DNA of 7,729 nucleotides from Actinomycetota bacterium (GTDB lineage: Bacteria > Actinomycetota > Thermoleophilia > UBA2241): contig PMKK01000083.1 of assembly GCA_003157715.1 (NCBI GenBank), positions 1 to 7,729 of the forward strand. Reading direction: 5' to 3'. The translations under genes were made by a program, and so were the position numbers. Below the pieces are notes generated by a model. It was not told the DNA's origin and made no database searches. It saw nothing but the letters and a program-made list of their open reading frames with translations. Shown here one piece after another: positions 2,647-6,504 of this stretch. Every line of letters starts with the position of its first letter. Position 1 is the stretch's first letter.

Positions 2647-3855
2647 ATGACCGACTACACCCCTGACCCGACTCTCTTGCAGAAGATCCTCGTCGCTGAG
2701 CTGCCTGAGGGTCGCGCAGTGACCACGTACTTCGTCGCCTTAGACAAGGAGCCGGCCACCGACCGCAACGGCAAATCGTTCCTGCGCCTCAAGCTGCGCG
2801 ACGCGTCGGGCGAGGTCAAGGCGATCCACTTCGACCCCGACCAGGCGATGGTCGACGACCTCACCAGCGGCGACGTCGTCAGGGTGAGCGGCACCTATTC
2901 GGTCCACGAGAAGTTCGGCCAGCAGTTCCAGATCAAGGAACTCTCCATCATGGCGCCCGGCGAGTACGACATCGGCACGCTGGTGCCGGTCTCACCGGTG
3001 CCCCTCGAAGAGCTCGAGCGCCGCCTGGCCGAACTCGTCGCGTCGGTGCGCAGCCCTTCGCTGCACGAGCTCCTCGCGCGCGCCGTCGACCCCTCCAGAG
3101 AGCCCGGCGCGACGTTCCTACTGGTGCCGGCGGCCGTGCGCAACCACCACGCCTACCGTCACGGCCTGCTCGAACACTCGCTGATCGTCGCCGAGGTGGC
3201 CGCCGCGGTCGCCGAGCGCTTCGCCACCGTCAACCGCGACCTCACGGTGGCCGGCGCCCTGTTGCACGACATCGGCAAGGTCGACTCGTACTCGGCCGAC
3301 CCCATGGCGCCCGGCTTCACCGACGTCGGCCGGCTGCACGGCGAGATCGTCATCGGCCACGACATCGTGCGCGGCCTGACCGACGAGATCGCCGGCTTCC
3401 CGCCCGAGGTGTCGGTCCAGCTGCGCCACATCGTCGTCTCCCATCACGGCGAGCGCGAAAAGGGCAGCCCGGTGGTGCCTGCTACTCGCGAAGCCGTCAT
3501 CGTGCACTACTGCGACGACATGACCGCGCGCCTGGCCGCCGTCGACGAGACCGCCGCCCGCACGGCAGACGGCGAGCGCTGGTCGCGCTGGGTCAACATG
3601 CTCGATTCCTACACCTATCTGGCCGAGGCCGTCGACGGCCCGCCGACGAGCCCACCGGCCGCCGTCGGCGAGCCGGTCGCGGCCGACGAACCAGTCGCTG
3701 CCGACGGGCCGGCGACGGCCGACGAACCGATCGCCGGCGCAGAGCCCGTCGCCAGCGCGGAGCCGATTGCCGACGGCGGGCCCGTCGCAGCCGACGAGCC
3801 TGAGCCGACGGGCCAGGACGGCCGCGGCGAACCGACCGGCGCGGCACTCTTTTAG
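2647..3855 (+). CDS. OB-fold/HD-domain phosphohydrolase, YhaM-type 3'-5' exoribonuclease-like
   Basis: ATG 2647 follows a strong AAGGAG by five bases. The 402-residue protein has three parts. Residues 15-105 form an OB-fold nucleic-acid-binding domain (TTYFVALDKE, FLRLKLRD.SGEVKAI, GDVVRVSGTYSV, FQIKELS). Residues 155-325 are an HD domain with HHAYRHGLLEHS (H177), LLHDIGK (H207, D208), RLHGEIVIGH, VSHHGEREKGSP (H265, H266) and HYCDDMTAR (D290, D291), which give the metal site. From about residue 331 the rest is a disordered Pro/Ala/acidic tail. Family knowledge: this OB-HD order is that of YhaM, a 3'-to-5' exoribonuclease of Firmicutes that also degrades single-stranded DNA. RNA or DNA turnover in the cytoplasm is the likely role; exact substrate is inference. 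The repetitive tail is not a feature I know from YhaM. The gene lies 107 bases after the MFS gene, probably with its own promoter. Confidence 0.87.
   Translation: MTDYTPDPTLLQKILVAELPEGRAVTTYFVALDKEPATDRNGKSFLRLKLRDASGEVKAIHFDPDQAMVDDLTSGDVVRVSGTYSVHEKFGQQFQIKELSIMAPGEYDIGTLVPVSPVPLEELERRLAELVASVRSPSLHELLARAVDPSREPGATFLLVPAAVRNHHAYRHGLLEHSLIVAEVAAAVAERFATVNRDLTVAGALLHDIGKVDSYSADPMAPGFTDVGRLHGEIVIGHDIVRGLTDEIAGFPPEVSVQLRHIVVSHHGEREKGSPVVPATREAVIVHYCDDMTARLAAVDETAARTADGERWSRWVNMLDSYTYLAEAVDGPPTSPPAAVGEPVAADEPVAADGPATADEPIAGAEPVASAEPIADGGPVAADEPEPTGQDGRGEPTGAALF
3667..3804 (+). repeat. Degenerate coding repeat, EPVAAD-like units in the OB-HD protein tail
   Basis: Within the C-terminal tail of the OB-HD protein (residues about 341-386) a 6-7 residue unit recurs about seven times: EPVAADE, EPVAADG, (A)DEPIAGA, EPVASA, EPIADGG, PVAADEP. 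At DNA level GCCGACGA and GAGCCG words repeat. The segment is acidic and Pro/Ala-rich, hence disordered, and should be prone to length change by slippage. Confidence 0.75.
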
Positions 3856-5544: not shown

Positions 5545-6009
5545 TTATCCCGCCTTGCGCACCGGCGCCCAGATCTCGCGGGCCGCCGCCAGCACCTGGG
5601 CGGCGTGCCCTCTGGCCTGCACCTTGGCGTAGACCTTGCGCAGCGTGCCGTCGGCGTCGATCAGAAACGTCGTTCGCTTGGCCACGCCCACCATGGGGCG
5701 CGCCACGCCGAACGCCGCCGAGACCGTGTAGTCAGTGTCGCAGAGCAGCGGAAAGCGCAGCTCGTAGTCCCGCGCGAACTCGGCGTTGGCCGCGACGGGG
5801 TCGACGCTTACCCCGATCACCTGCACGTCGAGCGCGGCGAACGCGTCAAGGAGGCCGTTGAACTCAACGGCTTCGACCGTTCAGCCCGAGGTGTTGGCCT
5901 GGGGATAGAAGTAGAGCACCGTGCGGCGCGCCGGCGCGCCGACATCGAATGTCTGTCCGTCGTACGACGTGCCGGTCACGGCCGGCGCCTTGTCGCCTTC
6001 CTTGAGCAT
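5545..6009 (-). CDS. bcp: BCP/PrxQ-type peroxiredoxin with catalytic selenocysteine (UGA recoded)
   Basis: This reduces peroxides in the cytoplasm using a selenolate in place of the peroxidatic thiol. ATG 6009-6007 follows GGGAGGG by a few bases. The frame runs 42 codons, meets TGA at 5883-5881, then continues in the same frame for 111 codons to TAA at 5545-5547: 154 residues, a normal BCP length. Before the TGA are KEGDKAPAV, DGQTF and VLYFYPQANTSG. After it come TVEAVEF, VQVIGVSVD, FPLLCDTDYTVSAAFGV and TTFLIDADG. In BCP the stretch YFYPKxxTPGCT holds the peroxidatic Cys; here that exact residue (position 43) is the TGA. A SECIS-like hairpin follows at once. BCP's alpha-type resolving Cys, five residues on, is absent (Val 48); the only Cys is 90. 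It probably heads a unit with the aspartase-family gene. The alternative is a nonsense pseudogene, but the hit on the catalytic codon, the intact second half and the hairpin argue against that. Confidence 0.9.
5845..5877 (-). promoter_or_regulatory. Bacterial SECIS-like hairpin
   Basis: Starting nine bases after the UGA, the message contains a perfect 7-bp stem, GCCGUUG (5871-5865) with CAACGGC (5860-5854), closed by the tetraloop AGUU (5864-5861). The outer A and U of the loop can add an eighth pair. A lower stem GUCGA (5877-5873) with UUGAC (5849-5845), one G-U pair included, extends it across an asymmetric internal loop (A / CUCC). Bacterial SECIS elements lie inside the coding region straight after the Sec UGA, with the apical loop roughly 16-37 nt downstream and a G among the first two loop bases. 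Here the distance is 16 nt and the G is second. SelB would bind the loop. Confidence 0.82.
5881..5883 (-). other. Selenocysteine codon UGA (residue 43 of the peroxiredoxin)
   Basis: The plus strand reads TCA here, so the message reads UGA. It is flanked by ACC TCG GGC upstream and ACG GTC GAA downstream, giving NTSG-U-TVEA, which aligns with TPG-C-T in BCP-type peroxiredoxins. It is the only stop within the frame between 6009 and 5548. Confidence 0.9.
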
Positions 6010-6061
6010 GGTCCCTCCCTGGTCGCGCGGCGCCCTTCGCCGCCACCCGCGGGCCCCGCGA

Positions 6062-6294: not shown

Positions 6295-6504
6295 ATGGGC
6301 ATGCGCGTGAGTATCGACTACGAGAAATGCAACGGTGCCGCCGCCTGCGAGGCGGTGTGCCCAGAGGTGTTCGTCATCCGCGAGTCGGACGGCTTGGCCG
6401 ACGTCCTGGAGCCTGAGCCGCACCCCACCCTGTGGGACTGCGTGCGGCGCGCCGAGGACGCCTGTCCCGAAGACGCGATCATCATCGAGGAGGACGAGGA
6501 GTAG
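6295..6504 (+). CDS. Small ferredoxin, predicted [3Fe-4S]
   Basis: The 69-residue protein is a soluble electron carrier of the short single-cluster type. Cysteines lie at 12, 18, 22, 49 and 57. The usual layout is C-x2-C-x2-C-x3-C-P followed by C and then C-P. Here C12-x2-A15-x2-C18-x3-C22-P keeps the spacing but has Ala where the second ligand should be. By family comparison C12, C18 and C57 would hold a three-iron cluster, while C22 and C49 match the disulfide pair of Thermotoga-type ferredoxins. The C-terminus is very acidic (IIIEEDEE), suited to docking on a basic partner. Ferredoxins of this size often serve cytochrome P450s or oxidoreductases, but no partner gene is in the window. I choose ATG 6295 over ATG 6301 because of the promoter spacing. 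The gene diverges from the selenoperoxiredoxin gene. Confidence 0.9.
   Translation: MGMRVSIDYEKCNGAAACEAVCPEVFVIRESDGLADVLEPEPHPTLWDCVRRAEDACPEDAIIIEEDEE

Follow-up and report, generated by a model that had tools for sequence, protein, structure and literature searches.

The window, by which we mean the whole stretch of DNA analyzed, is 7,729 bases long and GC-rich. Its peroxiredoxin gene lies among genes for a HAD hydrolase (rear part), an NHL-repeat protein, an MFS-like transporter, a YhaM-like OB/HD-domain protein, an aspartase/fumarase-family lyase, a 4Fe-4S ferredoxin, a cupin and a metallo-hydrolase. The features that concern the peroxiredoxin gene are as follows.

5545..6009, minus strand: CDS of the predicted Sec-containing PrxQ/BCP-type peroxiredoxin, 154 codons, ATG start, TAA stop
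5881..5883, minus strand: UGA codon 43, predicted to be read as selenocysteine, the peroxidatic residue of PxxxTxxU
5854..5871, minus strand: putative SECIS apical hairpin GCCGUUG-AGUU-CAACGGC, loop at 5861-5864, 16 nt from the UGA to the loop
5836..5883, minus strand: UGA and the conserved stretch 3' of it, as aligned across relatives
6013..6020, minus strand: Shine-Dalgarno-like, purine-rich AGGGAGGG just 5' of the ATG, read from the upstream letters
5740..5742, minus strand: TGC codon of Cys90, a candidate resolving residue
4053..5468, minus strand: aspartase/fumarase-family lyase, the next downstream gene
6295..6504, plus strand: 4Fe-4S single-cluster ferredoxin, the divergent upstream neighbor

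A promoter scan found nothing, and a single terminator-like site was detected, unremarkable and on the plus strand. The Rfam scan of the window returned 3 matches up to E 10, all unrelated and far under their gathering scores. The OB/HD-domain protein has an Ala/Asp/Glu/Pro-rich tail of near-repeats (EPVAADEP-like), encoded at 3640-3840 on the plus strand.

The original prediction described a gene with one in-frame TGA, intact halves and 154 residues. This was confirmed by translation of the minus strand from 6009 to 5545, where the only internal stop is the TGA at codon 43 (5883-5881). The peroxidatic motif of the protein is P36-QAN-T40-SG-U43. With codon 43 read as Cys, the Pfam AhpC-TSA domain was matched at 107 bits over residues 5-125, a match that spans the TGA. 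The best NCBIfam model was thioredoxin-dependent thiol peroxidase with 89 bits, which is under its cut-off of 140. GC3 is alike on both sides of the TGA, 0.88 before and 0.91 after. The open frame alone is weak evidence because the DNA is GC-rich; about 20% of random 154-codon sequences of matching composition contain no more than one stop. It is more than chance because the TGA is conserved at the same codon in relatives from the class.

Conservation of the TGA codon and database annotation

The class sample consisted of 199 genomes from the class of genome G002, whose record is titled Thermoleophilia, and was searched with E values up to 1e-20. Matches were obtained in 80/199 genomes, and codon 43 was scored in the best match of each. 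The count excludes a fragment whose contig stops before codon 43 (G006) and three loci of AhpC type (L188-L190). Those three loci, from G003, G005 and G004 respectively, hold a second, AhpC-type Sec peroxiredoxin gene with the motif PGDFTFV-U-PTE, in which a TGA occupies the position of the catalytic Cys and the frame is open on either side.

Among the 79 class matches covering the site, codon 43 was TGA in 25 and TGC or TGT in 54, with nothing else found. The TGA genes form two clades by identity to the window protein, 13 at 63–91% and 12 at 39–45%. The closest locus is in the Actinomycetota MAG palsa_645 (genome G001), which has the same TGA and 91% protein identity. In an alignment of 42 sequences, 8 of them Sec genes written with C, the TGA column is an invariant Cys; the claim that the TGA falls exactly on the peroxidatic Cys of BCP/PrxQ proteins is borne out. 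The columns of Thr40 and Arg112, residues that presumably have catalytic roles, are also invariant.

The same TGA and hairpin were found in five independent assemblies (L001-L005), as would hardly be expected if the TGA came from a sequencing error or had arisen by a recent nonsense mutation. A sequencing or assembly error would need to change one base, TGC to TGA, and with the codon and its hairpin repeated in this way we consider it extremely improbable. The original prediction had called a random nonsense mutation at this codon unlikely, and the recurrence agrees with that view.

The neighborhood is partly conserved as well. Among 14 related loci the metallo-hydrolase was a neighbor in 12, the cupin in 10 and the ferredoxin in 8, while the lyase was retained in 4 (L193, L114, L115 and L008).

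In the maximum-likelihood tree, which was rooted at its midpoint, the Sec clade of the window encloses two Cys proteins with 67–68% identity to the window protein (P0002 and P0003), and the second Sec clade encloses two Cys genes (L123 and L136). Such nested Cys genes would be expected of Sec/Cys exchange in a living gene. Together with the Sec genes they form a natural series, whose nested Cys members at 67–68% identity to the window protein lack the resolving Cys five residues after the peroxidatic position (U+5). The series lets one ask what the benefit of selenium is and by which route the enzyme is reduced.

The best 36 protein database matches (P0002-P0037) were examined for their length. 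Only P0002 and P0003, both Cys proteins, are full-length. The other 34 have 85–113 residues and contain nothing of the front part as far as the Sec position, as anticipated by the original prediction, which held that gene callers would break the gene. Two of these entries, P0004 (from the window itself) and P0027, are, first residue aside, exact rear parts of the TGA genes of the window and of L114. The genes of the other 32 front-lacking entries probably contain the TGA as well. Automatic annotation seems to cut this kind of protein short in a little-studied group of Actinomycetota, and because the front is lacking in most of the closest database entries, the antioxidant enzymes of the group are probably under-counted.

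These entries could also be taken at face value, with the rear part alone made as a short protein of 93 codons from an internal GTG. We consider this very unlikely, given that the front 42 codons are conserved and a Shine-Dalgarno-like site lies at the ATG, and that such a protein would, according to the fold model, have neither the active-site loop nor the strands at the front of the fold.

The hairpin behind the UGA and the selenocysteine machinery

The stem of the hairpin starts 9 nt 3' of the UGA. The bacterial SECIS model, as given in the excerpted text of PMC13188914, has a loop of 3–9 nt with a G in the first two loop bases, a stem of 4–16 bp, a spacing of 16–37 nt and an energy of at most -7.5 kcal/mol. 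The window hairpin agrees with the model in having an AGUU loop (G at position 2), 7 bp, a spacing of 16 and an energy of -10.2 kcal/mol. The model is permissive, being passed by 142/1100 in-frame positions taken from four other genes of the window and by 5/54 Cys genes, and on account of the background positions it was dropped as proof by itself. Its energy limit, in the hairpin-only version, was missed by 7/25 TGA relatives, all from the distant clade. Single-sequence folding energy was likewise abandoned as strong evidence because the window folds only moderately better than shuffles, 5/200 of which folded at least as well over 60 nt and 15/200 over 38 nt. Comparative tests were used instead.

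An AGUU hairpin with at least 5 pairs and a spacing of 16–18 was present in 24/25 TGA relatives compared with 0/54 Cys genes. Synonymous sites were then compared within each clade. In the window clade (n = 14), mean pairwise synonymous identity was 0.98 over codons U+3 to U+9 (7 codons) compared with 0.59 over the other conserved codons (79 codons; p 4e-5). In the second clade (n = 12), the values were 0.85 (4 codons) and 0.45 (53 codons; p 0.002). Both p values are optimistic because the sequences are related. The Val codon in the stem is GTT in 14/14 members of the window clade, yet in five other genes of the window GTT accounts for only 1/130 Val codons.

Covariation was examined in an alignment of 18/26 sequences, 6/14 from the first clade and 12/12 from the second. 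The covariation score of 0.243 was matched by 0/500 shuffles. Pairing was retained in 84.9% of cells, and both sides had changed at 3/7 pairs. In the same 18-sequence alignment, the pair-type count was no better than shuffles (466/500 reached it), and the two outermost stem pairs fail in 9/18 sequences. Of the cells with double changes, 7/9 fall in one pair, and they mostly represent a single difference separating the clades. The comparisons indicate a SECIS that is conserved beyond the need of the protein, with the covariation part resting on few independent changes. Comparative evidence of this kind is stronger than the energy-based evidence.

These results bear on whether the locus is a pseudogene, a Cys-type PrxQ gene with a recent nonsense mutation, as an internal stop in the frame and database records of the rear part only might suggest. 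The same TGA is shared by 25 relatives, the most distant at 39% identity, the gene has no other damage, the SECIS region shows synonymous conservation and covariation, and the neighborhood is partly kept. We regard a pseudogene as highly improbable.

The genomes of the TGA relatives were searched for the selenocysteine machinery. In the genome of the closest locus (G001), a tRNA-Sec with anticodon TCA (72.8 bits) and selB (337 bits) are on one contig, while selA (480 bits) and selD (135 bits for its front piece) adjoin each other on another. This selD (L191, near base 1850 of contig C303) has an in-frame TGA of its own near the start, in SG-U-ASKMGPCDLD; a stretch within the gene is masked.

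Two scans, of 5 and 20 genomes, detected tRNA-Sec in 22/25 TGA genomes (5/5 and 17/20) and selB over its cut-off in 21/25 (3/5 and 18/20). selA was over its cut-off in 21/25, and selD in 3/5 of the TGA genomes searched for selD. All 25 have at least one of tRNA-Sec, selB and selA. G002 and G005 have tRNA-Sec, with selA and selD not over their cut-offs. Some sel genes sit at contig ends (G004:C50 and G005:C337), so the misses may be gaps in the assemblies. selA was found in 21/25 TGA genomes compared with 28/54 Cys genes' genomes (Fisher p 0.005), a link with TGA that is only modest because selA is over its cut-off in 107/199 class genomes. From what its relatives carry, the organism of the window probably has selA, selB, selC and selD.

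The UGA might instead have been reassigned to, or be read through as, a different amino acid, Trp for example, with no selenocysteine involved. Nothing specific speaks in favor of this reading, which we judge to have very little chance of being correct. The NHL, MFS, cupin and metallo-hydrolase genes of the window use TGA as their terminal stop and have none internally; therefore TGA is not a sense codon throughout. The aligned codon is Cys in 54/54 non-TGA homologs of the class, and tRNA-Sec with anticodon TCA is present in five of the closest genomes.

The exact alignment, the recurring TGA, the SECIS-type hairpin and the sel machinery of the closest genomes support the original prediction of a probable selenoprotein. 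Judging from these sequence comparisons, the locus is almost certainly a functional selenoprotein gene. SelB and Sec-tRNA(UCA) would decode UGA codon 43 as selenocysteine, with the hairpin 3' of the UGA steering the insertion, and the product would be a Sec43 peroxidase of PrxQ/BCP fold.

Fold, cysteines and place among known peroxiredoxins

The structure of the protein was predicted with Cys in place of Sec. Mean pLDDT was 94.2, and BCP/PrxQ entries were matched at TM 0.82–0.86. The predicted fold resembles PrxQ of Xanthomonas campestris (5iiz), BcpB of M. tuberculosis (5epf) and a Burkholderia protein (5enu), with TM scores of 0.83–0.86 for these three. The window protein differs from PrxQ/BCP proteins in its predicted Sec for Cys and in position U+5, where PrxQ has its resolving Cys at CP+5 and the window protein has Val. 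In the 25 TGA relatives of the class this position is Val in 24, Ile in 1 and Cys in none, compared with a resolving Cys in 49/54 Cys homologs of the class.

The sole cysteine of the window protein besides Sec43 is Cys90. It is common to 4/14 clade members, the window and its three nearest relatives, in the sequence FPLLCDTD or FPLICDTD, and to 18/20 of the front-lacking database relatives examined. Proteins without any cysteine make up 10/12 of the Sec proteins in the second clade and 6/14 in the first. Since these proteins have no cysteine, they would need an outside reductant.

In the mechanism we propose, the Sec43 selenolate of the PrxQ/BCP-fold peroxidase would attack H2O2 or organic peroxides. 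As U+5 is Val, reduction of the resulting selenenic acid should fall to a thiol from outside the protein, for which thioredoxin, mycoredoxin and low-molecular thiols are candidates. In the subclade of the window, reduction may perhaps proceed via Cys90.

A comparable fold was found in AhpE of M. tuberculosis (1xxu and 5id2; TM 0.86), a 1-Cys peroxiredoxin. AhpE works by a single-center mechanism with an outside reductant, and the window protein may be likened to it by analogy. Unlike the window protein, AhpE is a Cys enzyme, and it belongs to another subfamily; the fold alignment shows 28% identity. PrxU of Eubacterium acidaminophilum, which we take to be the protein behind NCBIfam NF040737, reportedly has Sec at the peroxidatic position, as predicted here. 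The window protein scored 41.1 bits against the NF040737 cut-off of 270 and so is outside that model.

The original prediction called Sec peroxiredoxins a described class, and the literature agrees. In the excerpts available, peroxiredoxin of COG1225 (Bcp) with the site TxxU is listed above the heading 'Predicted' in PMC9312934, and Sec-containing Prx is listed under COG1225 with TXXU in PMC1088965, under PF00578 with TxxU in PMC13188914, and with a T/SxxU site in PMC1794560. By its sequence, and as far as these excerpts define it, the window gene is a predicted member of the already described family of COG1225 (Bcp) Sec peroxiredoxins with TxxU. It shares with them the Bcp/AhpC-TSA domain, PxxxTxxU, the pairing of TGA with Cys, many Cys homologs and a putative SECIS behind the UGA. 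The assignment was made with Pfam, NCBIfam and structure, from the AhpC-TSA domain, T40-S-G-U43 and BCP folds. Compared with the COG1225 entries in these excerpts, the window member differs in coming from an uncultured Actinomycetota and in being without a resolving Cys at U+5. Among the open-licence papers listed by term searches, none on Sec Prx in Thermoleophilia or Gaiellales surfaced, which is not a claim of absence in print. The window gene would add one more well-supported Sec peroxiredoxin, from an actinobacterial group that is poorly known and mostly without cultured members.

The scan was extended beyond the class, keeping the best 80 of 188 relatives. Among these 80, at least 10 more TGA PrxQ genes were found in Acidobacteriota, Planctomycetota and Nitrospirota (L013, L015, L019, L022, L031, L041, L050, L074, L075 and L076), and 8/10 of these lack the Cys at U+5. 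The SECIS model was passed by 3/10 of them compared with 5/64 Cys genes, again within the best 80. Their Sec is assigned from the TGA codon and is less sure, because only 3/10 pass the SECIS model and the sel gene searches covered genomes of the class. When the sets were pooled, including the best 80 of 188 relatives, the U+5 Cys was absent from 34/36 Sec genes compared with 21/111 Cys genes. The pooled Cys set was obtained from 118 rows by removing 9 that had internal stops, were too short or could not be anchored, and by adding two Cys proteins.

One tentative reading is that Sec use and local loss of the resolving Cys are coupled in PrxQ, a two-Cys enzyme having become a one-Sec enzyme with an outside reductant. 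It would apply to Actinomycetota, Acidobacteriota, Planctomycetota and Nitrospirota, with Cys90 added in the subclade of the window as a possible substitute. We consider this reading possible but lean against it. When the association of Sec with resolving-Cys loss was tested with kinship taken into account, the informative pairs numbered on average 1.5 among 6 independent ones, so kinship alone may explain the link.

In two loci, L084 (1009-1434) and L121 (1001-1441), the Sec gene is directly preceded by a tandem gene for a peroxiredoxin-like protein with Ser at the aligned peroxidatic position. This Ser-type copy is perhaps a non-catalytic paralog.
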